From contig NZ_CP087719.1 of assembly GCF_020991085.1 (NCBI RefSeq), positions 3,926,001-3,990,000 of the forward strand: a stretch of 64,000 nt of DNA, read 5' to 3'. The DNA is from Roseomonas sp. OT10. GTDB taxonomy: Bacteria; Pseudomonadota; Alphaproteobacteria; Acetobacterales; Acetobacteraceae. Below are positions 41,390 to 64,000 of this stretch, piece after piece. Position 1 is the first letter of the stretch; each line of letters starts with the position of its first letter. The position numbers and the translations under genes are program-made. A model generated the notes under the pieces. It saw only the letters and a program-made list of their open reading frames with translations. It ran no database searches and was not told the DNA's origin.

Positions 41390-41390
41390 C

Positions 41391-42233
41391 ATGAGCGCCG
41401 CCCTGCATCGTTCCGTGCGCCGTCGCCGGCTGCACCGGCTCGCGGTCAACGCGCTGATCTGCGCCTTCGCGCTCTTCCCGATCCTCTGGGGCCTTTCCGC
41501 CTCCCTCAAATCCGCGGATCGCATCCTCGAATTCCCGCCGCAGCTGATCCCCGACGCTCCCACCCTGCAGCACTACGTCCGGCTGTTCGGGGAAGGGGCG
41601 GCCTACTACATCCTGAACTCGGTGCTCGTTTCGGCGCTCACCGTCCTCGTGACGCTCGGCCTCGGCGCCCTCGCGGCCTATGCCCTGGCGCGCTACGAGT
41701 TCCGCGGTCGCGCCGGCCTCATGGGCGCCACCGTCGCGATCATGAGCATCCCGATCGCCTCCCTCCTGGTTCCCACCTTCACCCTGCTCAGCGCGACGGG
41801 CCTGACGGACACGCGGACGGGGCTGGTGCTCCTCTACGCCGCCTACCAGCTCCCGGTCGTCGTCTGGATGCTCTACGGCTACTTCCGTTCCCTGCCGGTG
41901 GAGATCGAGAACGCGGCCCGCCTGGACGGCTGCTCGCCCCTGCGGACGCTCGTGAAGGTGGTGCTGCCGCTCTCGAAGCCGGGCCTCATCGCGGCGGGCC
42001 TCTTCGTCCTCGTCTTCGCCTGGAACGACTTCGTGGTGGCGGTCACCATGACCTCGACCGAGGCCGTCCGCACCTTCCCGGTCGCGATCTACTTCTACCT
42101 CGGCTTCTACGGGCGCGAATGGGGTCCGCTCCTCGCCGCGTCGATGGTCTCGATCGTCCCGATCCTCCTCGTCTTCGTGCTGCTCCAGCGGCACTTCATG
42201 TCCGGCCTGACCGGCGGCGGCGTAAAGGGCTGA
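41391..42233 (+). CDS. Sugar ABC transporter permease (MalG/UgpE type)
   Basis: A 280-residue membrane protein, one base after the previous stop. LICAFALFPILWGLSASLKSADRILEFPPQLIPD and the EAA loop IENAARLDGCSPLRTLVKVVLPLSKPG are typical of the MalG group. It works with the preceding permease. Confidence 0.9.
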   Translation: MSAALHRSVRRRRLHRLAVNALICAFALFPILWGLSASLKSADRILEFPPQLIPDAPTLQHYVRLFGEGAAYYILNSVLVSALTVLVTLGLGALAAYALARYEFRGRAGLMGATVAIMSIPIASLLVPTFTLLSATGLTDTRTGLVLLYAAYQLPVVVWMLYGYFRSLPVEIENAARLDGCSPLRTLVKVVLPLSKPGLIAAGLFVLVFAWNDFVVAVTMTSTEAVRTFPVAIYFYLGFYGREWGPLLAASMVSIVPILLVFVLLQRHFMSGLTGGGVKG

Positions 42234-42236
42234 GCC

Positions 42237-43361
42237 ATGGCGAACGTTTCCTTCCGCGGGGTCTCGAAGCACTACGCCGAGGTGGTGGCGCTGGAGGCGC
42301 TGCAGCTCGACATCGAGGACGGGGAGTTCGTCTCCCTCCTCGGGCCCTCGGGGTCCGGGAAGTCCACGACGCTGAACCTCCTCGCCGGCCTGCTGGAGGC
42401 CGATTCCGGCTCGATCTACATCGGCAGCCGGGACGTCACGCACCTGCCGCCGGAGCGGCGCGACCTGGCGATGGTCTTCCAGAACTATGCCCTCTACCCG
42501 CACCTCACGGTGGCGGAGAACCTCGCCTTCCCCCTGGAGGCGCGGCGGCCCCGCCCGGCGGCGGCGGAGATCCGCGCGAAGGTCGACCTGGTGGCGGAGA
42601 CGCTCGGTATCGGCGCGTTGCTGGACCGCTACCCGAAGGAGATCTCGGGCGGGCAGCAGCAGCGCGTGGCGCTCGGCCGCGCCATGGTCCGGGACCCGCG
42701 CGTCTTCCTCCTGGACGAGCCGCTCTCCAACCTGGACGCCCGCCTGCGCATCCGGATGCGCCGGGATCTGAAGAGCCTGCACGCGGCGATCCGGTCGACC
42801 ATCATCTACGTCACCCACGACCAGTCCGAGGCCATGACCCTCTCATCCCGGATCGCGGTCTTCGACCGGGGGCGGCTGCAGCAGTTCGGCCCGCCGGAGG
42901 AGATCTATGGCCGGCCGGTCAACACCTTCGTCGCGAACTTCGTGGGGGAGCGGGAGACGGGCTTCCTGCCGGGCGAGGCGTTCGACGAGGGCGGCGGGCT
43001 GCGCTTCAGGACCTCGTTCGGGGCAATCGACCTGGCCCGTCCTGCCGGTTCGCTTCGTGCAACCGGACCGCTTCTGGTGGGGGTTCGCCCGGAGGCGATC
43101 GCCATCGTGCCGCCCGAGGGGCCGGTGCGCGCGACGGTCGTCCTGACGGAACTGTCGGGGGCCGACATGCATGTCACCCTGCGCTCCGCATCGGGCGGGG
43201 AGCTGGTGGCCCGGCACGACCCCCGTACCGGCCTGCCCCTGCCGGGCGAGACGGTCGGGCTGCGCTTCGATCCGGCGCAGCTCCACCTGTTCGACCAGGA
43301 TTCCGGGCAGGCCGTCAGCCACGGCGTGCTTTCGAACTGCAACGGGAAGGGAGAGGGATGA
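42237..43361 (+). CDS. Sugar ABC transporter ATP-binding protein (MalK/UgpC type)
   Basis: A 374-residue ATPase. Walker A GPSGSGKSTT (~39), signature ISGGQQQRVALGRAM (~135), Walker B VFLLDEPLSNLDAR (~156), H-loop YVTHDQSEAMTLSSRI (~187), and a C-terminal MOP/TOBE-like domain from ~240 (VGVRPEAIAIVPPEG, VVLTELSGADMHVTLR). It energises the sugar importer. The stop overlaps the next start in ATGATG. Confidence 0.92.
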   Translation: MANVSFRGVSKHYAEVVALEALQLDIEDGEFVSLLGPSGSGKSTTLNLLAGLLEADSGSIYIGSRDVTHLPPERRDLAMVFQNYALYPHLTVAENLAFPLEARRPRPAAAEIRAKVDLVAETLGIGALLDRYPKEISGGQQQRVALGRAMVRDPRVFLLDEPLSNLDARLRIRMRRDLKSLHAAIRSTIIYVTHDQSEAMTLSSRIAVFDRGRLQQFGPPEEIYGRPVNTFVANFVGERETGFLPGEAFDEGGGLRFRTSFGAIDLARPAGSLRATGPLLVGVRPEAIAIVPPEGPVRATVVLTELSGADMHVTLRSASGGELVARHDPRTGLPLPGETVGLRFDPAQLHLFDQDSGQAVSHGVLSNCNGKGEG

Positions 43362-47959: not shown

Positions 47960-48496
47960 TCACTCAGCCTGCTCGCTCCGGGGCGGGCACGTTGGCGGTG
48001 CCTTCACGGTGTCGTCTTCCAGCATCTGGGCGCGCGCCACCGCCAGCAGCTTGCGGATCACCCGGTCGATGACGTCCTTCTCCTCGCCGTCCAGCGCGCC
48101 CAGGAAGGCGTCGTCGCGCTCGCAGGCCGCCCGGATGAGCCCCCGGAACACCTTGCGGCCGGGTGCCGTCAGGCTCAGGGCGAGCTCCCGGGCGTCATGG
48201 CGGCTGGTGCCGCGCCGGACCAGGCCGCGCTCGACCAGGCCGCTGACCGCGCGGCTGGCGAGGCCCTTGTCCAGCCCTCCCTGCCGGGCGAGGTCGGTCA
48301 GGGTCAGCGGCGCGAAGTCGCCCAGCAGGGCCAGGATGCGCCATTCCATCAGGCTGACGTCGAATTCCTGCCGGTAGCGCAGCGCGGCGCCGCGGCTCAG
48401 CGCATTGGCGAGCTGATGGATGCGATAGGAGAGCAGGTCGCGGATGGTCCGCGGATCGGTCGGGCCGTCATCGGCATCAGGGTCGGATCGAGCCAT
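47960..48496 (-). CDS. MarR-family transcriptional regulator
   Basis: A 178-residue winged-helix repressor: TIRDLLSYRIHQLANALSRGAALRYRQEFDVSLMEWRILALLGDFAPLTLTDLARQGGLDKGLASRAVSGLVERGLVRRGTSRHDARELALSLTAPGRKV. The ATG at 48496 has GGATGG upstream; an in-frame start at 48532 adds unrelated residues. It faces away from the hydrolase gene at 48610, and the palindrome GTTGACGCCATCAAC lies between them. The same palindrome at 49421 and 54628 makes this protein the probable repressor of the acyl-CoA cluster to 60928; MarR proteins of such clusters commonly sense an aryl- or acyl-CoA. Confidence 0.88.
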   Translation of the reverse strand: MARSDPDADDGPTDPRTIRDLLSYRIHQLANALSRGAALRYRQEFDVSLMEWRILALLGDFAPLTLTDLARQGGLDKGLASRAVSGLVERGLVRRGTSRHDARELALSLTAPGRKVFRGLIRAACERDDAFLGALDGEEKDVIDRVIRKLLAVARAQMLEDDTVKAPPTCPPRSEQAE

Positions 48497-48552
48497 GCTG
48501 TGCCATCCTACGGGTGACCGCCCGCCGGACAAAGCAGGCCATCCGCCGGAAG

Positions 48553-48567
48553 GTTGACGCCATCAAC
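48553..48567. promoter_or_regulatory. MarR operator candidate O1
   Basis: GTTGACGCCATCAAC, in the divergent marR/hydrolase region. It shares the pattern GTTGAYnnnATCAAC with two other sites, at 49421 and 54628. Position fits autoregulation of the MarR gene. Confidence 0.7.
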
Positions 48568-48609
48568 GGATGCCGGGCCTCCTCCCCCGACACAGCGGGA
48601 GAGGCGGCG

Positions 48610-49425
48610 ATGGCACGGCATGAGCAGGCGCACCGGATCGCCGCGCCCAACGGCGCCCGGATCGCGGTGACGGTGGCCGGGGAGGGCCCGGCCCTGGTCC
48701 TGCTGCCCTCCCTCGGCCGGGGCGCGGAGGATTTCGACGCCCTGGTCCCGCCCCTGGCGGCGGCGGGGCACCGGGTGATCCGGCCACAGCCGCGCTGGGT
48801 CGGCGACAGCACGGGGCCGGTGGAGGGGGTGACCCTGCACGACCTGGCGGCCGATGTCGCGGCGGTGATCGTCGCGCTGGCGGCCGCCCCGGCCGTGGTC
48901 GCCGGGCACGCCTTCGGCAACTACGTCGCGCGCAGCCTGGCGGCGGACCGGCCGGAGCTGGTCCGCGGCGTGGCGCTGCTGGCGGCCTCCCCGGGCAAGG
49001 CGCCGCCGGGAGAGGTCACGATCGGCCCGGCGATGCGGGCGGCGATCATGGGCTCCGGCGACGAGGCCCTGCCGGCCGAGGAGCGGCTGGCCCATCTGCG
49101 CACGGCCTTCTTCGCGCCGGGTCACGATCCCTCGCCCTGGCTCGCCGGCTGGCATGCCGCGGCCAAGCGGGCCCAGCGCGCCGCGATCGAGCGGACCCCG
49201 GTGGATGATTTCTTCGCCGCCGGGCGGGCGCCGCTGCTGGACCTCCAGGCGGAGGAGGATGCGGTGGCGCCCCCGGCCCAAGGCGGCTTCCTGAAGGCCT
49301 GCCTGGGCGAGCGCGTGACCATCGCCACCATCCCCCGCGCCGGCCATGCCCTGCTGCCGGAGCAGCCGGAGGCGGTGGTGCGGGCGCTGCTGCGCTGGAT
49401 GGCCGGGCTGCCGCTATATAGTTGA
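48610..49425 (+). CDS. Alpha/beta-hydrolase-fold protein with Ala at the nucleophile position
   Basis: A 271-residue protein of the alpha/beta-hydrolase fold. The N-terminal strand pattern is GARIAVTVAGEGPALVLLPSLGRGAEDFDALVPPLAAAGHRVI. The nucleophile elbow reads AGHAFGNYVARSLA, i.e. GxAxG, so the catalytic Ser is replaced by Ala. The Asp (LQAEEDAVAPP) and His (IPRAGHALLPEQP) regions remain. Either it uses a non-Ser mechanism or it is a binding or non-hydrolytic member. The ATG at 48610 follows GGGAGAGG; the frame upstream from 48514 has no such site. Its stop codon lies inside MarR operator O2. Confidence 0.8.
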   Translation: MARHEQAHRIAAPNGARIAVTVAGEGPALVLLPSLGRGAEDFDALVPPLAAAGHRVIRPQPRWVGDSTGPVEGVTLHDLAADVAAVIVALAAAPAVVAGHAFGNYVARSLAADRPELVRGVALLAASPGKAPPGEVTIGPAMRAAIMGSGDEALPAEERLAHLRTAFFAPGHDPSPWLAGWHAAAKRAQRAAIERTPVDDFFAAGRAPLLDLQAEEDAVAPPAQGGFLKACLGERVTIATIPRAGHALLPEQPEAVVRALLRWMAGLPLYS

Positions 49426-49435
49426 CATTATCAAC
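49421..49435. promoter_or_regulatory. MarR operator candidate O2
   Basis: GTTGACATTATCAAC overlapping the hydrolase stop codon, 47 bp before the ATP-grasp ligase start. TATATAG just upstream and CATAAT just downstream make the area AT-rich and promoter-like. Same motif as O1 and O3. Confidence 0.72.
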
Positions 49436-49481
49436 CATAATCTGCGACAACCCCCGCAACGACAGCACGGGGGGGGAAGGC

Positions 49482-50630
49482 ATGCGTCTGACCGAGATGG
49501 AGGCGAAGGCGCTGCTGCGCCGGCACGGGATTCCCGTCCCGCGCGGCCTGGCCATCCCGCCTGGCGCCCCCCTGCCGGCGGCGCTGCCCGACTGGCCCGG
49601 CCTCGTGCTGAAGGCGCAGCTCCTCGAAGGCGGCCGCGGCAAGCGCGGCCTGGTGCGCCGCGTGACGGCCGGTGAATTGGACGGGGCCCGCGCGGCCATG
49701 GAGGCCATCGCCGGCCCGGTCGGCTTCCTGGTGGAGGAGGCGGTCGCCATCGAGCGCGAGCTGTACGTCGCCCTGCGCGTCGACGGCACGGCGCAGCGGA
49801 TGGAGGCGCTGGTCTCCGCCGAGGGCGGCATGGCCGTGGAGGAGGGCGCGCCCCTGCTCCGCCTGCCGCTCGACCCCGGCGCGCCGGATGCGGCCGAGCG
49901 CCTCTACCCCGCGCTGCGCGACGCCCTGCCCCCTGCCCTGGCCGCGCGCCTGGCGCGGGAGGTGGTGCGGCTGGCCCGCCTCGCGGTGACGGAGGATCTG
50001 ACGCTGCTGGAGATCAACCCGCTGGCGGTCACCCCGACCGGGCTGCTGGCCTGCGACGCCAAGCTGGTGCGTGACGATGCGGCGCTGGACCGCCAGGACG
50101 CGGCGGCCACGGCCGGCAGCGCGGCGCTGGAGGATGCCGCGCTGACGCCGCTGGAGCGCCGTGCCCGCGACCGCGGCTTCGCCTTCGTGGAAATGCCCGG
50201 CAACGTGGCGGTGGTCTCCGCCGGCGCCGGGCTGGGCATGCTGCTGATGGACCTGCTGGCAGATCACGGGCTGCGCGCCGCCTGCTTCATGGACAACCTG
50301 CGCGGCGGCCCGGCCGAGACCACCGAGGCGCGGCTGGAGGCGGCCTTCGACCTCGCGGAGCGGGACGGGGTGCGGGCGATCCTGTTCTACACCACCCTCG
50401 CCTCCCGCCCGCTGGCGGAGCGGGTGGAGGCGCTGCTCGGCTTCCTCGCCCGCCGCCCGCCGCCGAAGCCGGTCTTCGCGGGCTTCGCCGCCGCCCATGC
50501 CGCCACGCGCGGCTTCGACGCCGCCGCCGCGCGGGAGCGGCTGCGCGCGGCGGGCGTCGTGCTGCTGGAGGAGGACCCGCTGGCGCTGATCCGCCGCATG
50601 GCCGCGCGGCTGGAAGGGGGTGCCGCGTGA
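49482..50630 (+). CDS. SucC-like acyl-CoA ligase, ATP-grasp (beta) subunit
   Basis: A 382-residue homologue of the beta subunit of succinyl-CoA/malate-CoA ligases. RLTEMEAKALLRRHGIPVPRGLAI and LVLKAQLLEGGRGKRGLVRRV form the ATP-grasp N-terminus; LTLLEINPLAVTPTGLLACDAKLV carries the Mg-binding ENP. The C-terminal CoA-ligase domain begins at PGNVAVVSAGAGLGMLLMDLLADHG. Start ATG 49482 with GGGGAAGG upstream. With the next gene it forms a two-subunit acyl-CoA ligase. The substrate is unknown and the sequence is diverged from housekeeping SucC. Confidence 0.85.
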   Translation: MRLTEMEAKALLRRHGIPVPRGLAIPPGAPLPAALPDWPGLVLKAQLLEGGRGKRGLVRRVTAGELDGARAAMEAIAGPVGFLVEEAVAIERELYVALRVDGTAQRMEALVSAEGGMAVEEGAPLLRLPLDPGAPDAAERLYPALRDALPPALAARLAREVVRLARLAVTEDLTLLEINPLAVTPTGLLACDAKLVRDDAALDRQDAAATAGSAALEDAALTPLERRARDRGFAFVEMPGNVAVVSAGAGLGMLLMDLLADHGLRAACFMDNLRGGPAETTEARLEAAFDLAERDGVRAILFYTTLASRPLAERVEALLGFLARRPPPKPVFAGFAAAHAATRGFDAAAARERLRAAGVVLLEEDPLALIRRMAARLEGGAA

Positions 50631-51496
50631 TGCCGCCCTTCCTGCGCGCCTTCCCGCAACGGGTCATCGTCCTCAACCCCGCCGGCCGCTACGCCGCCCG
50701 GCAGGTCGCCGGCATGCGCGAGGCGGGGACGCGGATCGTCGCCGGCATCGCCCTCGGCCGCGGCGGCACCGCGCTGGATGGGCTGCCGCTGCTCGACAGC
50801 CTAGCGGATCTGGAGGCGCCGGCCGATGCCGCCATCCTCTACACCCCGCCCGAGGGCACGGCCGACGCCATCCGGCAATGCGCCGCCGCCGGCATCCCCA
50901 CCATCGTCGCGGCGGCGGAATACGTCCCGCTGCATGACGGGCTGCGGGCGGCCCGGGCGGCGCGCGAGGCGGGAAGCTGGCTGGTGGGGCCGAACACGCT
51001 CGGCCTCTGCGTCCCCGGCGAGGGGCTGCTGGGCTCCATCGCCCCCTCCTTCTGCATGCCCGGCGGCGTGGCGCTGCTGGGACGCAGCGGCACGCTGACC
51101 CTGACCGTCGCGCGGCTGCTGACGGCGGCCGGGATCGGCCAGCGGCTCGCCTTGCACCTGGGCGGGGATTCGGTGATCGGCCGCAACCCGCACGAATACC
51201 TCGACGGGCTGGCCGCCGATCCGGGCACGCGCGCCGTGCTCTATTGCGGCGAGGTCGGCGGCGACAAGGAATACGCCCTGGCCGAGGCCCTGGCGCGCTT
51301 CCCCAAGCCGCTGGTCGCCACCGTGGTCGGGCGGCACGCCCCGGCGGACCGGCAGCTCGGCCATGCCGGCGCGCTGATCGGCAGCGCGCGCGAGGGGGCG
51401 GCGGCCAAGCTCGCGGCGCTGGGCGCGGCGGGCGCGATCACCGCCGCCACCCCCTACGACGCCATCGCCCGGCTGAAGGAGCTGCTGCCCGCATGA
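50627..51496 (+). CDS. SucD-like acyl-CoA ligase, CoA-binding (alpha) subunit
   Basis: A 289-residue alpha subunit. VIVLNPAGRYAARQVAGMREAGTRIVAGI is the CoA-binding Rossmann start, AILYTPPEGTADAIRQCAAAGIPTIVAAAE and GPNTLGLCVPGEG are family motifs, and the active-site phosphohistidine is in QLGHAGALIG. VALLGRSGTLTLTVARLLTAAGIGQRLALHLGGDSVIG is the ligase domain. GTG at 50627 overlaps the beta-subunit stop; an ATG at 50630 is equally possible. Translationally coupled to both neighbours. Confidence 0.86.
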   Translation: MMPPFLRAFPQRVIVLNPAGRYAARQVAGMREAGTRIVAGIALGRGGTALDGLPLLDSLADLEAPADAAILYTPPEGTADAIRQCAAAGIPTIVAAAEYVPLHDGLRAARAAREAGSWLVGPNTLGLCVPGEGLLGSIAPSFCMPGGVALLGRSGTLTLTVARLLTAAGIGQRLALHLGGDSVIGRNPHEYLDGLAADPGTRAVLYCGEVGGDKEYALAEALARFPKPLVATVVGRHAPADRQLGHAGALIGSAREGAAAKLAALGAAGAITAATPYDAIARLKELLPA

Positions 51497-52419
51497 GCCA
51501 GAACCCCGAGGTCGTCCTCTGCGAGTGCTTCGCCCGCGACGGGCTGCAGCACGAGCCGGAGGTGGTGCCCGCCGCGGCCAAGGCGGCGATGCTGGCGCGC
51601 ATCGCCGATTGCGGCTTCCGGCGCATCGAGATCACCTCCTTCTCGCACCCGAAGTACATCCCGCAATTCGCCGATGCGGAGGCGGTGCTGGCCGCCGTGC
51701 CGCCGCGCCCGGGCGTGCTGTTCAAGGCCACCTGCCCCAACCCCGCCGCCGTCCGCCGCGCCCTGGCCGCGCGCGAGGCCGGCCGCGGCCCGGAGGAGAT
51801 CAGCTTCCTCGTCTCCGCCTCGGAGGGGCACACGCAGAAGAACCTGCGCCGCTCCCGCGCCGAGCAATGGACCCAGGTGGAGGAGATGGCGGCGCTGGCC
51901 GGCGGCGCCTTCACCACGGTCGGCACCATCTCCGTCGCCTTCGACTGCCCCTTCGACGGCCCGACGCCGGAGGAACGCGTGGTGGAGGATGCGCAGCACT
52001 TCCTCGCACTCGGCGTCACCCGCATCGCCATCGGCGACACCATCGGCAGCGCCACGCCGCCGCGCGTGCGTGCCCTGATGCGACGCCTGCGCGACGCCCT
52101 GCCGGAGGACACCGTCCTCATCGCGCATTTCCACGACAGCCGCGGCACGGGCATCGCGAACTGCGTCGCCGCGCTGGAGGCGGGGGTGACGCATTTCGAC
52201 ACCGCCCTGGGCGGCACGGGCGGGCACCCCGCCGGCATCGCCTATGGCGAGGGCTTCACCGGCAATGTCTGCACCGAGGACCTCGCCACCCTGTTCGAGG
52301 CAATGGGTATCCGCACCGGGCTGGACATCGCGGCGGTGCGCGAGGCCGGGCGGGCCGCCGAGACCCTGCTCGGCCGCCGCCTGCACGCCCGCACCACCCG
52401 GCTGGGAGAGCATGCATGA
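51493..52419 (+). CDS. HMG-CoA-lyase-like enzyme
   Basis: A 308-residue TIM-barrel of the HMGL/DRE-TIM family: VVLCECFARDGLQHEPEVVPAAAKAAML carries the DxxQ-like motif, TSFSHPKYIPQFADAEAVLAAVP, ISFLVSASEGHTQKNLRRS, IGDTIGSATPPRVRALM and HFHDSRGTGIANCVAALEAGVTHFDTALGGTGGHPAGI carry the metal-binding HxHD/N-like residues. It would cleave a 3-hydroxyacyl-CoA into acetyl-CoA (or similar) and a smaller acid. Start overlaps the previous stop by 4 bp. Confidence 0.86.
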   Translation: MSQNPEVVLCECFARDGLQHEPEVVPAAAKAAMLARIADCGFRRIEITSFSHPKYIPQFADAEAVLAAVPPRPGVLFKATCPNPAAVRRALAAREAGRGPEEISFLVSASEGHTQKNLRRSRAEQWTQVEEMAALAGGAFTTVGTISVAFDCPFDGPTPEERVVEDAQHFLALGVTRIAIGDTIGSATPPRVRALMRRLRDALPEDTVLIAHFHDSRGTGIANCVAALEAGVTHFDTALGGTGGHPAGIAYGEGFTGNVCTEDLATLFEAMGIRTGLDIAAVREAGRAAETLLGRRLHARTTRLGEHA

Positions 52420-53228
52420 GCCAGGGGGAGATGGACCGGGAGGAGAACCCGCTGCTGCTGCGCCGGGAGGGCCCGGTGCTGCACGCCACGCTGAACCGCC
52501 CGGCGCGCCGCAACGCGCTCAGCGCCGCCCTTGCCGCCGCGCTGGACGACATGATCGCCGGGCTGCGCGAGGACCGCGAGACGCGCGTGCTGGTGATCGG
52601 CGGCGCGGGCGGGCATTTCTGCGCCGGGCTCGACCTGGCCGAGGCGGGCACGCCCCAGGCGCCCGAGGAGAAGCGTGCCGCGCAACTGGAGCGCAACCGC
52701 CGCACCGCCGCGCGCCTCGCCGCCCTGGCCGCGCTGCCGCAGGTGGTGATCGCCCGCATCGAGGGCTCCGCCTATGCCGGCGGGCTTGGCCTGGTCTGCG
52801 CCGCCGATCTCGCCCTGGCCGACGCCACCGCGCGCTTCGCCGCGCCCGAGGTGCGGCGCGGCCTGGTGCCGGCGCAGATCCTGCCCTGGCTGGTCCGCCG
52901 CATGGGCCGCAGCGACGCCACCCGGCTGGTGCTGCAGGGCGACGCCTGGGACGCGCCCACCGCCCTGCGCGCCGGGCTGGTGCACGAGGTGCTGCCCGAC
53001 GCCGCCGCGCTCGATGCACGGCTGGCGACCGTGCTCGCCGACCTGCGCCAGGGCGCGCCCGGCGCGCTGGCGGCCACGAAGGAGCTGCTGGCCGCGCTCG
53101 GCCCCGTGGCGCCGGAGGGCTATGCCGAGGCGGGCGCCCGCGCCTTTGCCCAGGCCGCGGCCGGCGAGGCCGCCGAAGGCATCGCCGCCTTCCGCGAGAA
53201 GCGGGCGCCAGCCTGGGCTGTGCGCTGA
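52416..53228 (+). CDS. Enoyl-CoA hydratase/isomerase family protein (1)
   Basis: A 270-residue crotonase-fold enzyme. ATLNRPARRNALSAALAAALDDM, GGHFCAGLDLAEAG (first oxyanion-hole region) and RIEGSAYAGGLGLVCAADLALADATARFAAPEVRRGLVPA (second) are clear. Two catalytic-Glu positions are not obvious, so it may be an isomerase or hydrolase rather than a hydratase. Last gene of the operon; starts within the lyase stop. Confidence 0.85.
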   Translation: MSQGEMDREENPLLLRREGPVLHATLNRPARRNALSAALAAALDDMIAGLREDRETRVLVIGGAGGHFCAGLDLAEAGTPQAPEEKRAAQLERNRRTAARLAALAALPQVVIARIEGSAYAGGLGLVCAADLALADATARFAAPEVRRGLVPAQILPWLVRRMGRSDATRLVLQGDAWDAPTALRAGLVHEVLPDAAALDARLATVLADLRQGAPGALAATKELLAALGPVAPEGYAEAGARAFAQAAAGEAAEGIAAFREKRAPAWAVR

Positions 53229-53600
53229 GGCGTCGGTTCGCGTGGTGTCCCCCGGGCGAGGCGCTGCCTCTCCCGGACCCTCTCCGCCGGGGGCGGGCCG
53301 GCCCCCGGACCCCGGCGGGAGTCTGGCGAGGTGTTGTCGGCGTCAGCCTGCGGGCGGAACCCTGACGCAACGCGGACAGGCGGGACTCCGAAAAGCTTCA
53401 GCAAGCGTCCGCGAACGCGGAGGCCGTGCCCGCCGAGGAGCGTGGCTCCTCGGCGCCTCGACCCCGTTACAGGCTGTCCCGCGGCAGCGCCCTTCGGGTC
53501 CAGGGCCCGCAGGGTCCTGGCGGAGTGGGGGTACGGGGGCGAGGCAGCGCCTTGCCCCCGGGGAGCGGGCGCCACGGGCCACGGCACCGCGCTGGGCGTA
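53229..53600 (-). repeat. Mosaic intergenic repeat, copy D (inverted)
   Basis: The fourth copy, in reverse orientation and more diverged, filling the gap between the convergent hydratase and Bug receptor stops. The core hairpin is at 53431-53455 (arm CGCCGAGGAGC, loop GTG instead of CAT). Its last block differs from copies B and C and carries another GC-rich inverted region near 53288-53325. Confidence 0.8.
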
Positions 53601-54584
53601 TCACTCCAGCCGGATGCCCGCCTGCGCCACCACCTGCTTCCACAACGGTACTTCGCGCTGGAGGCGTTCGGCGAGCGGGGCGGGGCCGTCGAGCAGGAGG
53701 CGTGCGCCGGAGGCTTCCAGGCGCTGGGCCAGGACGGAGCCCTCGCGGAGGGGCGCCATCTCCTGCACCAGGCGCTCCACCACGGCGGGCGGGGTGCCGC
53801 GCGGGCCGAGCATGGCGTACCAGATGGGCATGTCGTAGCCGGGCACGGCCTCGGCGATCGCGGGCACGTCGGGCAGGGCCTTGTTGCGCTGGGGCGAGGT
53901 GACGGCCAGGGCGCGCAGCCGGCCCTCGCGCACATGGGTCATCGTCTCGATCAGCCCGGTGATGAGCAGGTCGGTGTCGCCGGCGTAGAGGGCGTTCACC
54001 GCCTGTCCGGCGCCGCGATAGGGGACGTGCAGCAGGTCGATGCCGGCGCGGACCTTCAGCAGCTCGCCGCCGAGATGGGTGGTGGAGCCGGCGCCGGAGG
54101 AGGCGAAGCTGATCCTCCCCGGCTGCGCGCGGGCGCGGGCGAGCAGATCGTCCAGGCTGCGGCCCGGCCAGTCCGGGCGCACCAGGATGGCCATGGGCAT
54201 CTCCACCACCATGCTGATCGGCACCAGGTCGCGGAACGGGTCGTAGCCGGGGTCGTGCAGCAGCGCCGGCAGGATCGACACGGAGGAGGTGGTGAAGAGC
54301 AGCGTGTGCGGGTCGCCCGCCTGCACCACGTACTGGATGCCCAGCGCCCCGCCGGCGCCGGGCTTGGTCTCGACGATGGTGCTCTGGCCCAGGCGCTGGG
54401 TCAGGTGCTCGGCGATGAAGCGCGCCGGCACCTCCACCGGCCCGCCCGGCGCGAAGGGGACGATGAAGCGCAGCGTGCGCTCCGGCCAGCCGGCGGCACG
54501 GGCGGGGCCGGCGGCAAGCCAGGGCATGGCACCGGACAGCGCCGCGCCGGCCAGCAGGCGACGGCGCGCGATGGAATGGGACAT
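53601..54584 (-). CDS. Bug/TctC-family periplasmic solute receptor (3)
   Basis: A 327-residue exported receptor: MSHSIARRRLLAGAALSGAMPWLAAGPARA signal, FIVPFAPGGPVEVPARFIAEHL, SFASSGAGSTTHLGGELLK, LHVPYRGAGQAVNALYAGDTD and KALPDVPAIAEAVPG. The start at 54584 has GGGGAGGAA upstream. It is divergent from receptor 4, with MarR-type operator O3 between them, and probably binds a carboxylate feeding the acyl-CoA pathway. No TctAB pair is nearby. Confidence 0.88.
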   Translation of the reverse strand: MSHSIARRRLLAGAALSGAMPWLAAGPARAAGWPERTLRFIVPFAPGGPVEVPARFIAEHLTQRLGQSTIVETKPGAGGALGIQYVVQAGDPHTLLFTTSSVSILPALLHDPGYDPFRDLVPISMVVEMPMAILVRPDWPGRSLDDLLARARAQPGRISFASSGAGSTTHLGGELLKVRAGIDLLHVPYRGAGQAVNALYAGDTDLLITGLIETMTHVREGRLRALAVTSPQRNKALPDVPAIAEAVPGYDMPIWYAMLGPRGTPPAVVERLVQEMAPLREGSVLAQRLEASGARLLLDGPAPLAERLQREVPLWKQVVAQAGIRLE

Positions 54585-54627
54585 TCGGTTCCTCCCCGAT
54601 CTTCTGCGCACAGGCTAGGAGAAATTG

Positions 54628-54642
54628 GTTGATAAGATCAAC
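54628..54642. promoter_or_regulatory. MarR operator candidate O3
   Basis: GTTGATAAGATCAAC, a perfect dyad with arms GTTGAT / ATCAAC around AAG, in the 118-bp gap between the divergent receptor genes 3 and 4. From here one repressor could control both directions. Same motif as O1 and O2. Confidence 0.72.
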
Positions 54643-54702
54643 TAAAACCTCTAGCCCTGCTGGCAAGAGCTTCGCCGCGATGCGGAAGACCGAGGAAATG
54701 CC

Positions 54703-55674
54703 ATGCTCCGACGCACCCTGCTTGCCGCCGCCTGCTGCCTGCCCGCGCTGCGCCCCGCCCTGGCCGCGGGCTGGTCGCCGGACCGGCCGCTGCGCCTGAT
54801 CGTCCCCTTCGCCGCGGGCGGCCCCGCCGACATCTTCGGCCGCCTCTTCGCCGAGGCGCTGTCGCGCCAGCTCGGCCAGCCGGTGGTGATCGAGAACCGC
54901 ACCGGGGCCGGCGGGCTGGTGGGGACGGAGGCGGTGGCGCGGGCGGCGCCGGACGGGCTGACGCTGGGCTTCACCGGCCCTGGCGCGCTCTCCATCGCGC
55001 CCGCCATGCCGCAGCAGCGCATGCCCTTCGACGTGGAGCGCGACCTGGCGCACCTGACGCTGGTGGTGCGCGTGCCGGAGGTGCTGGTGGTCAACGCCGC
55101 CTCCGGCCCCGCCAACCTGAAGGCGCTGATCGCCAAGGCAAAGGCCAGGCCGGGCGAGATGTCCTACGGCTCGGCCGGGGCCGGGTCGCTGACGCACCTG
55201 GCCAGCGCGCTCTTCGCCTCGGCCGCGGGGATCGAGGCGCTGCACGTCCCCTATCGCGGCGCCGCCCCGGCGGCGACGGACCTGCTGGCCGGACGCTTCG
55301 ACTTCATGACCGCCGACGTTCCCGTGCTGCGCCCGCATATCGAGGCCGGCGCGCTGCGGCCGCTCGCCGTCACCACGGCGCAGCGCGTGGCCGCCCTGCC
55401 GGAGGTGCCGACCACGGCGGAGCTGGGCCTGCCGCAGGTGAACTCGGACAACTGGTACGGGCTGGCCCTGCCGGCGGCGACGCCCGCGCCGATCCGCGAG
55501 GCACTGCGGGCGGCGGCGCTGAAGGCCCTGCGCGATCCGGCGCTGGTGCAGGAATTCGCCAAGCAGGGCGGCGAGTCCTCGCCGATGGAGCCGGAGGCCT
55601 ATCTCGACTTCCTGCGCCGGGAAGCGGCCAAGTGGGGCCCGATCGTGCGCAGCACCGGGGCGGAGGCGCTGTGA
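54703..55674 (+). CDS. Bug/TctC-family periplasmic solute receptor (4)
   Basis: A 323-residue exported receptor: signal MLRRTLLAAACCLPALRPALA, then LIVPFAAGGPADIFGRLFAEAL, QPVVIENRTGAGGLVGTEAVARAAPDG, SYGSAGAGSLTHLASALF and LHVPYRGAAPAATDLLAGRFDF. First gene of the rightward cluster; the next gene starts on its stop (GTGA), an unusually tight link between a receptor and an enzyme gene. Confidence 0.88.
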   Translation: MLRRTLLAAACCLPALRPALAAGWSPDRPLRLIVPFAAGGPADIFGRLFAEALSRQLGQPVVIENRTGAGGLVGTEAVARAAPDGLTLGFTGPGALSIAPAMPQQRMPFDVERDLAHLTLVVRVPEVLVVNAASGPANLKALIAKAKARPGEMSYGSAGAGSLTHLASALFASAAGIEALHVPYRGAAPAATDLLAGRFDFMTADVPVLRPHIEAGALRPLAVTTAQRVAALPEVPTTAELGLPQVNSDNWYGLALPAATPAPIREALRAAALKALRDPALVQEFAKQGGESSPMEPEAYLDFLRREAAKWGPIVRSTGAEAL

Positions 55675-56657
55675 CGATGACGGAGTTCGGCTTTCCCTCG
55701 CGCCTGCCGGCGCTGCTCGGCATCCGCTATCCGATCGTGCAGGGGGGGATGAGCTGGGCCTCCTCCTCCGCCGCCCTGGCGCTGGCCGTGGCGCGGGCCG
55801 GGGGGCTCGGCACCATCGCCGCCGGGCCGATGCGGCCCGAGGCGCTGGTCGAGGCGATCCGCGCGGTGCGGGCCGGCACGGACGCCCCCTTCGCCGTCAA
55901 CGTGCCGCTCTACAACAAGCGTTCCGCCGAGTTCCTCGACATCGTCGAGGCGGAGCGCGTGCCCATCCTGATCTGCTCCCAGGGCGGGTCGAAGGCGCAT
56001 CTGCCGCGCTTCCGGGCCTATGGCGCCAAATGGCTGCACGTCGTCGCCTCCCCCCTGCACGCCGCCAAGGCCGAGGCGGCCGGGGTGGACGGGCTGATCG
56101 TCGTCGGCGGCGATGCCGGCGGGCACCCGGCGCCGGACGAGGTCTCCGCCATGGTGATGGTGCGCGCGGTGGCGCGCGCGGCGCGGGTGCCGGTGATCGG
56201 CGCGGGCGGCGTGGCGGACGGCGCCGGCATCGCGGCGATGTTCGCCCTGGGCGCGGAGGGGGCGCAGCTCGGCACGCGCTTCCTGATGACGGAGGAGGCG
56301 ACGGTCCACGCCGCCTACAAGGACAGCGTCCTGCGCGCCGGGCTGGCGGACACCACGCTGGTCGGGCGCGGCGGGCTGCCGGTGCGGCAGGTGCGCAACC
56401 GCTTCACGGAGGAGGTCGATGCGGCCGAGCGCGCCGGGCAGGACAAGGCGGCGCTCGATGCCCTCTATGCCAGCCGCAGCCTGAAGCTCGCCGCGCTCGA
56501 CGGCGATGTGGAATGGGGCAAGGTCGAGGCCGGCCAGACCGCCGGGCTGATCGACGACATCCTGCCCGCCGCGGAGGTGATGCGCCGGCTGGTGACGGAA
56601 GCGGAGGCGGTGCGCCGCCGCCTCGCCGGCCAGCCGGAGGCGCGGGCCGCCGCATGA
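55671..56657 (+). CDS. Nitronate monooxygenase/2-nitropropane dioxygenase-family protein
   Basis: A 328-residue FMN-binding TIM-barrel. RLPALLGIRYPIVQGGMSWASSSAALALAVARAGGLGTIAAG is the family opening, with IVVGGDAGGHPAPDEVSAMVMV (phosphate and catalytic-His region GGHP), VIGAGGVADGAGIAAMFALGAEGAQLGTRFLMTEEA following. Members also act as enoyl-CoA reductase-like enzymes; here the acyl-CoA neighbours make that as plausible as nitronate oxidation. GTG at 55671 overlaps the previous stop; an ATG at 55677 is the alternative. Confidence 0.82.
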   Translation: MTMTEFGFPSRLPALLGIRYPIVQGGMSWASSSAALALAVARAGGLGTIAAGPMRPEALVEAIRAVRAGTDAPFAVNVPLYNKRSAEFLDIVEAERVPILICSQGGSKAHLPRFRAYGAKWLHVVASPLHAAKAEAAGVDGLIVVGGDAGGHPAPDEVSAMVMVRAVARAARVPVIGAGGVADGAGIAAMFALGAEGAQLGTRFLMTEEATVHAAYKDSVLRAGLADTTLVGRGGLPVRQVRNRFTEEVDAAERAGQDKAALDALYASRSLKLAALDGDVEWGKVEAGQTAGLIDDILPAAEVMRRLVTEAEAVRRRLAGQPEARAAA

Positions 56658-57352
56658 TCCGCATCGGGGACCATGACGGCATCCGTACGCTTGCCCTGGC
56701 CCGCCCGGAGAAGCGCAACGCCCTCGACACGGCGCTGGGGGAGGCGCTGATCGCCGCGCTGCGCGAGGCGGAGGCGGCGCCGGAGGTGGCGGCCATCGTG
56801 CTGGCCGCCGAGGGGCCTGGCTTCTGCGCCGGCGCCGATCTGGGCGAGCTGCGCGCCCTGGCGGACGACCCCGTGGCGAAGGCCGCGCGCGCGGCGCTGA
56901 GCGAGGCGATCCTGCTGGCGCCCGGGGATACGGGAAAGCCGGTGGTCGCCGCCGTGCACAGCGCGGCGCTGGGCGCCGGGGCGGCGCTGGCGCTGTGCTG
57001 CGACCGGCTGGTGCTGGCCGAGGACGCCACGCTGGGCTTCCCCGAGGCCCGGCACGGCATGCTGCCGGCGCTGATGGCCCCCGTGCTGCGGCAGCACCTG
57101 CCGCCGCGGCAGGTCTTCCGCCTGCTCGCGACGGGGCAGCCGCTGCCGGCCGCCGAGGCGCTGGCGCTCGGGCTGGCGGAGGCGGTCGTCCCGGCGGAGG
57201 CGTTGCTCGCGGAGGCGGGGCGCCTGGCGCGGGAGGCGGCCAGCCTGCCGGTGCCGCGGATGCGCGCGCTGAAGCGGCTCTGCGCCGCCGCCCCGCCCTC
57301 GCTGACCGAGGGCTTCGCCCGGGCCCGTGCCGAACGGGAGGCGCTGGCATGA
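56654..57352 (+). CDS. Enoyl-CoA hydratase/isomerase family protein (2)
   Basis: A 232-residue crotonase-fold enzyme, slightly short. ALARPEKRNALDTALGEALIAAL, GFCAGADLGELR and VHSAALGAGAALALCCDRLVLAEDATLGFPEARHGMLPAL carry the oxyanion-hole and adjacent regions. Starts in the stop of the preceding gene and ends in the start of the CoA-transferase gene (ATGA at both ends). Confidence 0.85.
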   Translation: MIRIGDHDGIRTLALARPEKRNALDTALGEALIAALREAEAAPEVAAIVLAAEGPGFCAGADLGELRALADDPVAKAARAALSEAILLAPGDTGKPVVAAVHSAALGAGAALALCCDRLVLAEDATLGFPEARHGMLPALMAPVLRQHLPPRQVFRLLATGQPLPAAEALALGLAEAVVPAEALLAEAGRLAREAASLPVPRMRALKRLCAAAPPSLTEGFARARAEREALA

Positions 57353-58548
57353 CGCGGCCGCTGGACGGTCTGGTGGTGCTGGACCTCTCCCGGGTCCTCG
57401 CCTGCCCCTTCGCCACCATGCTGCTGGCCGAGATGGGGGCCGAGGTCATCAAGGTGGAGCAGCCCGGCTCGGGCGACGAGACCCGCTCCTTCGAGCCCTT
57501 CGCCGAGGGGCCGGGCGGCTCCGTCAGCGGCTACTACATGGCGGTGAACCGGGCGAAGCGCTCGATCACCGTGAACCTGCGGCATGCGGAGGGGCGGCAG
57601 GTGATCCGCGACCTCGCCGCCCAGGCGGACGTGCTGGTGGAGAACTTCCCCGTCGGCACGCTGGCGCGGCGCGGGCTGGACTGGCCGGCGCTGGCGGCGG
57701 TGAACCCGCGCCTCGTCTACGTCTCCTGCACCGGCTTCGGCCAGAGCGGCCCCTATGCCGGACGCAAGGGCTACGACACCGTCTTCCAGGCGATGGGCGG
57801 GCTGATGGGCCTGACCGGCGAGCGCGGCGGCGGGCCGGTCAAGCCCGGCCTGCCGGTGGCCGACATCTCCTCCGGCCTCTGGGTCGCCATCGCCATCCTC
57901 GCCGCGCTGCAGGGGCGGGAGCGGACGGGCAAGGGCGGGCATGTGGACGTCTCCATGCTCGACGCGCAGGTGGCCCAGCTCACCATCGCCGCCGCCCGGG
58001 TCTTCGCCCTGGGGGAGGTGCCGCCGCGCCTGGGCACGGAGCATCCCGGCCGGGTGCCGAGCGCCAGCTTCCGCTGCGCCGACGGCCGCTGGCTGCACAT
58101 CACCGCCAGCGACCAGCACTGGGCGCCGCTCTGTGCCGCGCTGGAGCTGGGCGAGCTGGCGGCCGACCCGGCGCTGGGGAGCAATGCCGGGCGCGTGGCG
58201 CAGCGCGAGCGGGTGATGGCGGCGCTGTCGGCCGCCATGGCCCGCCTGCCGCGCGGCGAGGCCTTCGCCCGGCTGGATGCGGCCGGCGTGCCGGCGGGGC
58301 CGGTGCTGGAGCTGGACGAGGTGCTGGCCGACGAGCACGTGCAGGCGCGCGGCATGGTCCGGCGCTTCGAGCACCCGACGCTCGGCAGCTTCCCTGCCCT
58401 GCCGGTGCCGCTGCGCTTCGCGGGCTGGGACGACCCGGCGCTCGGCCGCCCGCCGCTGCTGGGCGAGCATACGGACGTGGTGCTGCGGGAGCGGCTGGGG
58501 ATGGATGCGGCGCGGATCGAGGCGCTGCGGGAGGACGGTGCGCTGTGA
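57349..58548 (+). CDS. CaiB/BaiF-type (family III) CoA-transferase
   Basis: A 399-residue enzyme that moves CoA between carboxylic acids. LDGLVVLDLSRVLACPFATMLLAEMGAEVIKVEQPGSGDETR is the standard N-terminus with the catalytic Asp region later (VADISSGLWVAIAILAALQGRERTGKGGHVDVSMLDAQ). KGYDTVFQAMGGLMGLTGE and PVLELDEVLADEHVQARGMV complete the pattern. It would activate the pathway substrate using an endogenous CoA donor such as succinyl- or acetyl-CoA. Confidence 0.9.
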   Translation: MTRPLDGLVVLDLSRVLACPFATMLLAEMGAEVIKVEQPGSGDETRSFEPFAEGPGGSVSGYYMAVNRAKRSITVNLRHAEGRQVIRDLAAQADVLVENFPVGTLARRGLDWPALAAVNPRLVYVSCTGFGQSGPYAGRKGYDTVFQAMGGLMGLTGERGGGPVKPGLPVADISSGLWVAIAILAALQGRERTGKGGHVDVSMLDAQVAQLTIAAARVFALGEVPPRLGTEHPGRVPSASFRCADGRWLHITASDQHWAPLCAALELGELAADPALGSNAGRVAQRERVMAALSAAMARLPRGEAFARLDAAGVPAGPVLELDEVLADEHVQARGMVRRFEHPTLGSFPALPVPLRFAGWDDPALGRPPLLGEHTDVVLRERLGMDAARIEALREDGAL

Positions 58549-59294
58549 CGGAACCCCTGCTCTACGCGATGGCGGAAGGCGGCGTCGCCACCCTGACGCT
58601 GAACCGGCCGGAGGCGCGCAACGCCCTGAACACCGCGCTGGCCGAGGCGCTGCTCGCCGCCGCGCGGCGCGCGGTCGCGGAGCAGGCGCGGCTGGTGCTG
58701 GTGCGGGCCGCGGGGCCGGTCTTCTGCGCCGGCGCCGACCTGAAGGAACGCAAGGGGATGAGCGAGGACCAGGTCCGCGCCCGCCGCCTGAAGGGCTTCG
58801 CCGCCTATGACGCGCTGGAGCGGCTGCCGATGCCTTCCGTCGCCGTGGTGACGGGGCCGGCGGTGGGCTCGGGGGTGGAGATCGCGGCCGCCTGCGACTT
58901 CGTGGTGGCGACGCCCGCCGCCTCCTTCCGCACGCCCGAGGCGCTGTGGGGCACGGTGGGGGCGACGCAGCGCCTGCCGCGCATCCTGGGCAAGCGGCTG
59001 GCCAAGGATATGATGTTCACCGGCCGCACGCTGTCGGCCGGTGAGGCGCGCGAGGCGGGGCTGGTGGCGCGGCTGGTGGCGCCCGAGGCGCTGGAGGAGG
59101 AGTTGGCCGGCATCGTCCGCGCCGTGACCGGGGCGCCGCCGACCGCGATGCGCCTGGCCAAGCGCTGCGTGGACGAGGGGCTGGAGCGCGACCCGCGCGG
59201 CGCCCTGGCGACGGAGCTGCTGGCGATCGAGGAGAACCTCGCCGGCGGCGAATGGCGCCAGGGGATCGCGGGCTTCGGGAAGGCGGCGGAATGA
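58545..59294 (+). CDS. Enoyl-CoA hydratase/isomerase family protein (3)
   Basis: A 249-residue crotonase-fold enzyme: ATLTLNRPEARNALNTALAEALL, GPVFCAGADLKERKGMSEDQ and VTGPAVGSGVEIAAACDFVVATPAASFRTPEALWGTVGATQRLPRILGK. The segment around PEALWGTVG holds a Glu at a catalytic-hydratase position, making this the best hydratase candidate of the three paralogues. GTG start overlaps the previous stop. Confidence 0.87.
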   Translation: MTEPLLYAMAEGGVATLTLNRPEARNALNTALAEALLAAARRAVAEQARLVLVRAAGPVFCAGADLKERKGMSEDQVRARRLKGFAAYDALERLPMPSVAVVTGPAVGSGVEIAAACDFVVATPAASFRTPEALWGTVGATQRLPRILGKRLAKDMMFTGRTLSAGEAREAGLVARLVAPEALEEELAGIVRAVTGAPPTAMRLAKRCVDEGLERDPRGALATELLAIEENLAGGEWRQGIAGFGKAAE

Positions 59295-60928
59295 GCCTCG
59301 ACCTCGATGCCGTCTGCCCGCTGACGACGCAGCGGGCGCTGGACCGCGCCGCCGCCATCGCGCCGGAGGTGGAGGCCGTCGTCGTCCCCTCCGGCCGCAT
59401 CACCTATGCCGGGCTGGCGGCGGAGGTGCCCCGCATCCGCGCGGCGCTGGCGGCGGCCGGGATCGGGCACGGCGACCATGTCGGGCTCTGCCTGGGCAAC
59501 GGTCCACGCTGGGTGGCGATCTTCCTCGCGCTGGGCTCGCTCGGCGCGGTGACGGTGCCGGTGAACACGCGCTTCCGCGGCGAGGAGATGGCCTATGCCC
59601 TGCGCCAGTCGCGGGTGCGGCTGCTGCTCACCGCCGACCGCTTCCTGCGCGTGGACTTCGTCGCGATGCTGCGCGGCATCTGCCCGGGCATCGACACGGG
59701 CCTGCCGGACGCGGCCCTGCCCGATCTCGCGCAGGTCGTGGTGCTGGGCGAGGACGTCCCGGCCGGGGCGCGGCGCTGGGAGGAGTTCCTGGCGGCGGGC
59801 GAGGGGCGCGACGTCCCCGCCGCCTGCACGCCGGACGACGTGCTGCTGATCCAGTACACCTCCGGCACCACCGCCTTCCCCAAGGGCGTGCTGCTGACCC
59901 ATCGCAGCATGTGCGCGGACGCCTTCTTCTCCGGCGGGCGCATGGGGCTGCGCGTGGCCGACCGCTTCCACAGCGCGCGTCCCTTCTTCCATGTCGCCGG
60001 GACCACCCTCTCCATCCTCTCCTGCCTGCAGCACGTGGCGACCCTGGTCTCCATGGACCGCTTCGAGCCGGCCGAGGCGCTGCGGCTGATGGAGGAGGAG
60101 CGCTGCACCCACTTCTCCGGCAACGACACCATGGCGCTGATGCTGCTGAACCACCCGGACCGGGCGGGCCGGCGGCTGGCGTTGCGCGGCGCCTGGGCCG
60201 CCGCCTCGCCCAGCATCGTGCGGCGCATCATCGACGAGCTGGGCGCGCGGGAATGCGTCGTCGGCTACGGCCTGTCGGAAGCCTCGCCCAACGTCTCGCA
60301 ATCCGCCTGGTGGGAGCCGGAGGCGGTGCGCGTCGCCGGCCGCATGCTGCCCGAGCCGGGGGTGGAGGTCCGCATCCGCGCCCTGGATGGCGGCGGGGAC
60401 TGCGCGCCGGGCGAGCCGGGCGAGATCCTGGTGCGCGGCTGGAACGTGATGCAGGGCTATTTCGACAAGCCGGAGGAGACGGCGAAGGCGCTCTCGCCCG
60501 AGGGCTGGCTCGCCACCGGCGATCTGGGCCGGCTGGGCGAGGACGGACGGCTGGAGTTCACCGGCCGCGCCAAGGACATCGTGCGCGTGGGCGGCGAGAA
60601 CGTCTCGCCCGCGGAGGTGGAGGACATCCTGCACCGCCATCCGGCGATCCGGCAGGCGGTGGTGGTGGGCGTGCCCGACCCGCGGCTGGTCGAGGTGGTG
60701 TGCGCCTTCGTCATCCCGAACGAGGGCCAGTCCTGCGACCCGGAGGCGCTGATCGCCTGGAGCCGGGAGAACATGGCCGGCTTCAAGGTGCCGCGCCACG
60801 TGCTGGTGGTGGAGAGCTTCGAGGCCATCGGCATGACCGCCAGCTCCAAGATCCAGAAGCGGCACCTGGCGGAGCATGCGGTCAGAATCCTCGGCCGCAA
60901 CGGCCCTCCTGATCGGTCGTCGGTGTAA
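59291..60928 (+). CDS. AMP-forming acyl-CoA synthetase
   Basis: A 545-residue member of the AMP-binding family. IQYTSGTTAFPKGVLLTHRSM is the P-loop (~190), YGLSEASPNVSQS (~335) and ATGDLGRLGEDGRLEFTGRAKDIVRVGGENVSPAEVED (~410-450) the hinge region, and ASSKIQKRHLAEH holds the catalytic Lys. It adenylates a carboxylic acid and attaches CoA. The start overlaps the upstream stop by 4 bp, closing a compact six-gene operon that begins with receptor 4. Confidence 0.92.
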   Translation: MSLDLDAVCPLTTQRALDRAAAIAPEVEAVVVPSGRITYAGLAAEVPRIRAALAAAGIGHGDHVGLCLGNGPRWVAIFLALGSLGAVTVPVNTRFRGEEMAYALRQSRVRLLLTADRFLRVDFVAMLRGICPGIDTGLPDAALPDLAQVVVLGEDVPAGARRWEEFLAAGEGRDVPAACTPDDVLLIQYTSGTTAFPKGVLLTHRSMCADAFFSGGRMGLRVADRFHSARPFFHVAGTTLSILSCLQHVATLVSMDRFEPAEALRLMEEERCTHFSGNDTMALMLLNHPDRAGRRLALRGAWAAASPSIVRRIIDELGARECVVGYGLSEASPNVSQSAWWEPEAVRVAGRMLPEPGVEVRIRALDGGGDCAPGEPGEILVRGWNVMQGYFDKPEETAKALSPEGWLATGDLGRLGEDGRLEFTGRAKDIVRVGGENVSPAEVEDILHRHPAIRQAVVVGVPDPRLVEVVCAFVIPNEGQSCDPEALIAWSRENMAGFKVPRHVLVVESFEAIGMTASSKIQKRHLAEHAVRILGRNGPPDRSSV

Positions 60929-60932
60929 CGCC

Positions 60933-61761
60933 GTGGAGTGCCCCCTCATTTCGACCGGACAGGTGGCTTAACCTGAGGGCCTAGGCTTGAGCCCAGGCAT
61001 ACGCCTATATCCAAGCCCGTTGAGCGCGTCGACATCATCACCGGCTGCGAGCGCCGCAGGCGCTACAGTGCCCCGAGAAGGTTCGGCTGGTCGAGACTGT
61101 GAAGCAATGCCTCACAGTCTCGACCAGCCCAGCATGACGGTCCCGGCCGTCGCCCGGCTGTACGGCATCTCGCCCAGCCTGCTGTTCGGGTGGAGGCGTC
61201 GCATGGCTGAGGGCGGCCTGGAGGCGGTTCGGGCAGACGACGACGTGGTGGCCGCCAGCCGTGTCCGCGAGCTCGAGGCCACGGTCCGGGATTTTGAGCG
61301 CCTGCTCGGTCGCAAGACCATGGAGGTCGAGATCCTGCGGGAGGCATGGGACGCCACCCGGGGAAAAAGCCCGGCTTCCGGCTGCCGTCGCCGCCTCCAA
61401 CCGGTTCCCAGTGAAAGCGGTGACCGACACCCTGGGCGTGGCCCGCTCCAACCTGGTCGAGCAGTTGCAGGGTCCGGGACGCCGCCGCGACTCCTACCAG
61501 CGCGAGGGCGACGACGTGCTCCTAGCCGAAATCCGCGCCGTCACCGATGCCCGGCCCACCTATGGCTACCGCCGGATCACCGCCCTGCTGAACCGCGCCC
61601 GCCGGGCCGCTGCAGGGCCGCCGGTCAACCGCAAGCGCGTGCTGCGCCTCATGCGCCGTTCCTCGCTCACGCTGCAGCCCAGCACCACGATGCGTGTCAT
61701 CCGAACGCATGAGAGCAAGGTCGTCGCGCCCGGCTGGCGAGCACACGTGCCGCGACGCTGA
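60933..61761 (+). mobile_element. Decayed IS3-family (IS2-group) element
   Basis: The left end begins TGGAGTGCCCCCTCATTTCG, like the ends of IS2-group elements. OrfA: VERVDIITGCERRRRYSAP, a one-base loss, then PSMTVPAVARLYGISPSLLFGWRRRMAEGGLEAV and RDFERLLGRKTMEVEILREAWD. OrfB begins in another frame near 61370 (FPVKAVTDTLGVARSNLVEQL, ARPTYGYRRITALLNR, VNRKRVLRLMRRSSL) and stops near 61761 before the DDE catalytic domain. No right end. Immobile relic between the catabolic operon and secA. Confidence 0.8.
61085..61129. repeat. Perfect 18-bp inverted repeat inside the relic orfA
   Basis: Arms GGCTGGTCGAGACTGTGA (61085-61102) and its exact reverse complement (61112-61129) flank a 9-nt loop. In intact relatives the codons here run straight through a KVRLVETVKQP-like stretch. 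About 20 extra bases, complementary to the upstream arm, lie between the Lys-Gln and Pro-Ser codons. An inverted template-switch duplication explains both the palindrome and the frameshift. Confidence 0.75.

Positions 61762-61779: not shown

Positions 61780-64000
<2,221 letters not shown>

Follow-up and report, generated by a model that had tools for sequence, protein, structure and literature searches.

The cluster of acyl-CoA genes analysed here raises the question of whether a palindrome that recurs three times within it is the operator of the MarR family regulator encoded by its first gene, and which pathway the genes so marked might serve. The window, that is, the whole stretch of the Roseomonas sp. 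OT10 genome that was analysed, comprises 64,000 nucleotides. Most likely, the neighbouring MarR protein uses the palindrome as its operator and would repress its own gene, the hydrolase gene, the ligase-lyase operon, both receptor genes and the second acyl-CoA operon; judging from sequence comparison, the entire cluster is very probably under the control of a single regulator gene.

The predicted regulator gene, marR (47960-48496, minus strand), encodes a protein of 178 aa that belongs to the MarR family (Pfam MarR_2, PF12802, 58.9 bits against a cut-off of 27; MarR, PF01047, 41.8 bits against 24.6) and reaches none of the NCBIfam equivalog cut-offs. Around putative operator 1 (48553-48567), an exact motif with the weakest flanks of the three, marR diverges from a gene for an alpha/beta hydrolase of 271 aa (48610-49425, plus strand; Pfam Abhydrolase_6), the start of which, the ATG at 48610, was chosen by eye. 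If the hydrolase starts at the upstream GTG (48514), operator 1 is intragenic according to the simple GC3 gene caller, which counts against the promoter reading of this site. The hydrolase is a distant relative of PcaD (NCBIfam, below cut-offs) and scores well short of the PcaD equivalog (TIGR02427, 60.2 bits against a cut-off of 255.85). No relatives of it were detected at E<=1e-20 in 20 loci round MarR relatives; one (46%) is present in a Rhodococcus locus (L176).

Putative operator 2 (49421-49435) overlaps the hydrolase stop codon and precedes an operon that encodes, on the plus strand, a sucC-like ATP-grasp subunit of a CoA ligase (49482-50630; Pfam ATP-grasp_2; 144.1 bits, below the SucC NCBIfam cut-off of 370), a sucD-like subunit (50630-51496; Pfam CoA_binding, Succ_CoA_lig and Ligase_CoA; 196.4 bits, below the NCBIfam cut-off of 336), an HMGL-like lyase (51493-52419) and the enoyl-CoA hydratase family protein ech1 (52416-53228; Pfam ECH_1, 147.5 bits). 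Putative operator 3 (54628-54642), again an exact motif, lies between the divergent genes of two TctC-type receptors, bug1 (53601-54584, minus strand; Pfam TctC, 202.2 bits) and bug2 (54703-55674, plus strand; 231.1 bits). The latter is the first gene of the second operon, which continues on the plus strand with the nitronate monooxygenase/FabK-like flavoenzyme nmo (55677-56657; Pfam NMO, 182.6 bits; 264.5 bits, below the FabK cut-off of 453), ech2 (56654-57352; enoyl-CoA hydratase family, Pfam ECH_1, 126 bits), the class III CoA-transferase frc (57349-58548; identified through solved relatives, below NCBIfam cut-offs), ech3 (58569-59294; enoyl-CoA hydratase family, NCBIfam enoyl-CoA hydratase models, below cut-offs) and the AMP-forming acyl-CoA ligase acs (59291-60928; NCBIfam acyl-CoA ligase models, below cut-offs). 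The best solved relatives of frc are the CaiB/BaiF protein 4ed9 and succinate--hydroxymethylglutarate CoA-transferase 9br6 (E 1.9e-83); kinship with the latter would fit a branched diacid as substrate. Directly behind acs are IS3-family transposase fragments (60987-61761; NF033516, 64.3 bits against a cut-off of 160), followed by secA (61780-63942, minus strand); upstream of the cluster (39150-43361) are ABC-transporter genes for a solute-binding and an ATP-binding protein (Pfam), where the motif is absent.

The sequence-only reading had placed the palindrome at 48553, 49421 and 54628, and exact matches to GTTGAYNNNATCAAC were indeed recovered at all three positions in a search of the window, with the minus strand matching too at 54628; the count was 0 in 100 dinucleotide shuffles of the window. 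The same reading had held that the sites cover every transcription unit of the cluster, which agrees with the arrangement of the genes into five units that start at three operators, namely marR and the hydrolase (48553), sucC-sucD-lyase-ech1 (49421), and bug1 and bug2-nmo-ech2-frc-ech3-acs (54628), with gaps of at most 20 bp inside the operons. Its figure of ten fixed bases needs correction: the motif has 11 fixed bases and one two-fold base. It had also proposed a genome-wide motif search, in which many unrelated copies would speak against a regulon. The symmetric form GTTGAYNNNRTCAAC (GTTGAYnnnRTCAAC) was found in only three places in the 5.69-Mb genome, all three inside the cluster, compared with 0.18 per genome expected from base composition and one place for the reversed control pattern. 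Allowing one mismatch adds 13 places (16 in total; six for the control), of which 11 fall within genes as delineated by the same caller; the two outside called genes (L100 1478 and L109 1499) were not counted to the regulon, and a wider regulon in this genome was rejected. Open-frame length was dropped as a coding test because at 72% G+C long frames span real sites too.

The position of the sites relative to promoter elements was assessed for 38 sites hand-picked beside cluster genes, which are related sequences and not independent trials; they yield 59 promoter directions, excluding one-mismatch sites in three genomes (G142, G238 and G300) as well as those that head additional operons in two same-genus genomes (G006 and G011). 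With the spacer counted from the TTGAYN hexamer to TA, the start of the -10 element, TA occurs at spacer 17 in 14 directions, at 18 in seven and at 16 in none, the background being 15/2124. Hence, at such promoters each arm is a half-site and a -35 element at once. In the window, this geometry is seen only at 54628, in both directions, with TAGCCC at spacer 17 to the right and TAGCCT at spacer 18 to the left; at operator 1 neither direction shows a -10 at a spacing of 16-18, operator 2 has none at the expected distance, and the same holds for 38 of the 59 directions overall. Among 27 aligned sites the flanks prolong the symmetry, with A at -2 in 19, T at -1 in 19, A at 17 in 18 and A at 18 in 22; the flanks of operator 1 match this extended symmetry poorly.

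A MarR dimer would bind the palindrome with one half-site per subunit, and at the divergent receptor promoters, where each arm would supply the TTGAY -35 of one promoter, one bound dimer would shut both. By analogy, the likeliest mode is repression that a metabolite of the pathway lifts, the prime candidate being a CoA thioester from one of the CoA-activating enzymes of the cluster. Some MarR proteins activate transcription, according to PMC4737184; activation at the sites considered here is highly improbable, given that the operator covers the -35 wherever a -10 is visible, an arrangement that suits repression.

The proposed MarR regulon gains support from comparison of genomes. MarR orthologues, defined as relatives at E<=1e-30, are encoded in 20 of 299 genomes of the family (that of the window included) and in G006 and G011, 22 genomes in all; the sample of 299 was taken as identical between the motif and MarR scans. 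In 20 of the 22, by hand count, a site is present at the promoter of marR or of a cluster operon, 14 with an exact copy and six with one changed base. All of these six (G028, G142, G238, G271, G290 and G300) share GTTTAC in one arm, and the site with this arm each time lies before a gene of the muconate cycloisomerase family, with pcaH and marR following on from it. The 21 orthologue genomes other than that of the window contain 33 exact places, against seven for the control; counting by hand with the window genome included, marR is no more than 40 kb away for 29 of 36 exact copies. An exact copy is also present somewhere in 105 of the 279 family genomes that lack a MarR orthologue, so it is the place of the site and not its presence that counts.

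In 16 non-duplicate orthologue loci (304,099 bases, counted without the duplicate genomes L038=L031, L046=L032, L047=L033 and L048=L034, and with L051, of 26% identity, unused), 20 exact and eight one-mismatch sites were found, compared with none of either kind in the reversed sequences. All 20 exact and five of the eight one-mismatch sites precede marR or cluster genes, the other three being located away from cluster-gene promoters (L032 7368, L042 11319 and L044 17069). Most syntenic loci have sites between marR and the divergent structural gene and before bug2; the exceptions are L033 and L035, with one-mismatch sites only, L042 and L044, with none before bug2, and L050, which lacks both the cluster and the site. 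In the window, the hydrolase gene is situated between marR and sucC with a site on each side, and hydrolase-free syntenic relatives have one site there. In G006, about 13 kb separates ech1, in the first operon, from the bug1/bug2 pair, in the second, and both parts keep sites: one with a single mismatch before sucC and two exact ones at the receptors (L033, L145). A motif unique in its genome, accompanying marR in 20 of the 22 orthologue genomes and kept by both split operons, thus supports the proposed MarR regulon, and the shared operators together with the conserved gene order support the view that the two operons belong to one pathway, as the sequence-only reading also had it.

Beyond the family, a Burkholderiales metagenome-assembled genome (L049) has an exact site before marR. 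On a Rhodococcus opacus plasmid, a MarR relative (54%) adjoins the cassette, with a one-mismatch site 38 bp before the lyase match, and on a Cupriavidus campinensis plasmid a MarR relative (44%) likewise adjoins it, with such a site 51 bp before the marR match. One-mismatch sites also precede the lyase on a Paracoccaceae plasmid (L179), and both marR and the lyase in Shinella (L181), whose adjacent MarR has an identity of just 31%. Cases that rest on a single-mismatch site are no more than suggestive. No site with at most one mismatch was found at the Bosea cassette (L180) or near a Polaromonas MarR relative (L178, 40%), which has no cluster nearby. The control loci L008-L030, 23 in number and taken from around less closely related MarR proteins, likewise had none.

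The palindrome could, in principle, be the operator of another regulator encoded elsewhere, with MarR merely sitting alongside. An IclR-family gene (PcaR/BhcR-like, below cut-offs) is indeed found near further operator-marked operons of G006 (L146:1552-2349), with a counterpart in G011 (L144:1831-2628), and two genomes, G230 (L168; named record L050) and G265 (L169), encode MarR orthologues of 65-66% identity without the cluster and without the site. This explanation is nevertheless highly improbable, considering that the 13 genes of the window cluster include no second regulator gene, that the sites accompany marR in most orthologue genomes, often within the marR promoter itself, and that MarR relatives in Cupriavidus and Rhodococcus also have such sites next to them. 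That the repeats are mere paired -35 elements, each arm containing the -35-like TTGAY, or products of chance can be practically dismissed: one-sided promoters (operator 2; L031 9734; L036 17364) likewise preserve the two arms and the 3 bp between them, the exact pattern is otherwise absent from the window genome, and chance was rejected in view of the empty shuffles, the excess of genomic places over expectation and the lack of sites in reversed loci.

Local MarR regulons with a TTGA-N5-TCAA operator are a known kind. In PMC4737184, the CouR regulon of Rhodococcus jostii RHA1 is described as having an inverted repeat, cATTGA-N5-TCAATg, that overlaps the -35 boxes; one box serves a divergent promoter pair, and several units of a CoA-dependent catabolic pathway share the box. 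The two systems are alike in the MarR regulator, in the TTGA-N5-TCAA skeleton over the -35 (the skeleton is present in all three window sites, the -35/-10 geometry in 21 of the 59 directions) in the divergent pair per box and in the grouping of several units of a CoA-dependent pathway under one box, whereas the outer base is G/C in the window cluster and A/T in the CouR box (PMC4737184), and the enzymes differ, the window cluster having an HMGL-like lyase, a SucCD-like ligase and TctC receptors. CouR was not recognised among the 31 solved chains listed. Among the matches listed in the open-licence literature, no description was found of the regulator-operator pair or its pathway cassette, of the reach of this pair into other orders and Rhodococcus, or of the associated lyase in which His replaces Cys.

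The product of 51493-52419 is named HMG-CoA lyase in databases. It exceeds the cut-offs of the HMGL-like domain (PF00682, 131.8 bits against 29) and of an NCBIfam subfamily (NF004283, 255.8 bits against 246), and shares the common fold family of the solved HMG-CoA lyases (6nds, 1ydn, 1ydo and 2cw6), with which its RDGLQ and HFHD/HxH regions align. The loop Cys of HMG-CoA lyase has a catalytic role. The solved enzymes possess this Cys, whereas in all 20 cassette lyases compared it is replaced by His (GGHP for GGCP) and followed by a four-residue insertion that lengthens the loop; because of these two changes the cassette lyase is not filed here as an HMG-CoA lyase.

Further operator-marked operons in relatives provide indications of the pathway. 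In the same-genus genomes G006 and G011, further exact sites head two sets of genes. One begins with a receptor gene and continues with those for a ring-hydroxylating dioxygenase, akin to 3-phenylpropionate/cinnamate dioxygenase, and for a short-chain dehydrogenase; the other is a PcaGH-like operon that also encodes a GlcD-like oxidase and a thiamine-diphosphate enzyme. An additional exact site in G011 precedes a receptor, and one-mismatch sites in the two genomes precede another thiamine-diphosphate enzyme and a receptor. The operons in L144 (G011) and L146 (G006) also hold a muconate-cycloisomerase-family enzyme and several TctC receptors, with the IclR-family gene nearby. In G124, G295 and the g15 genomes, marR immediately follows the genes for PcaH and another intradiol subunit, PcaG in relatives being recognised in part by a second, weaker pcaH match. 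In the window genome, the nearest PcaH (53%) is encoded elsewhere, on contig 2 (C2:139003), and cycloisomerase relatives reach only 36%. Because the same operator precedes ring-hydroxylating and intradiol dioxygenase operons in relatives, the cluster probably supplies the lower, CoA-dependent steps of a route for aromatic ring cleavage. The Bosea and Shinella plasmids (L180, L181) carry a lyase-ech-transferase-ech-ligase-nmo cassette next to an ABC transporter, an aminotransferase, a 'histone deacetylase family' protein and a succinate-semialdehyde dehydrogenase, neighbours that might point to an acid released from an amine conjugate.

The beta-ketoadipate (pca/cat) pathway usually employs a transferase and a thiolase where the cluster has its ligase and lyase. 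The operator-marked PcaGH-like subunits and muconate-cycloisomerase-family enzyme of the relatives resemble that pathway, from which the cluster differs in its SucCD-like ligase and HMGL-like lyase. A tentative and rather doubtful proposal is that the operator marks an undescribed lower route for products of aromatic ring cleavage. A muconolactone-type product, for which the PcaGH-like dioxygenase and an enzyme of the muconate cycloisomerase family would account in relatives, would be opened to a tertiary-alcohol acid, HOOC-CH2-C(OH)(R)-CH=CH-COOH (R = CH3 or COOH), and activated to a CoA thioester, which the His-for-Cys lyase would cleave to acetyl-CoA and an unsaturated keto acid that the NMO/FabK-like enzyme may reduce; MarR and its operator would have travelled with the cassette through Alpha- and Betaproteobacteria and Rhodococcus. 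An HMG route and an itaconate route were considered and abandoned in view of the His that replaces Cys and of the dioxygenases that relatives encode; a homocitrate-like version is retained as the R = COOH form of the muconolactone route.

With the palindrome assigned to the MarR protein, acyl-CoA genes that had only loose annotations become a regulon with defined members and an operator open to test. The assignment also points to an unassigned type of lyase with a changed active-site residue; the regulator-operator pair, with three sites per whole genome, is a possible biosensor part. The operator also leads to more candidate pathway genes in relatives, including ring-hydroxylating and intradiol dioxygenases, and thereby makes the question of the substrate testable. 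Some muconolactones are blocked from the usual beta-ketoadipate steps, and the muconolactone route, if true, would bypass this block.
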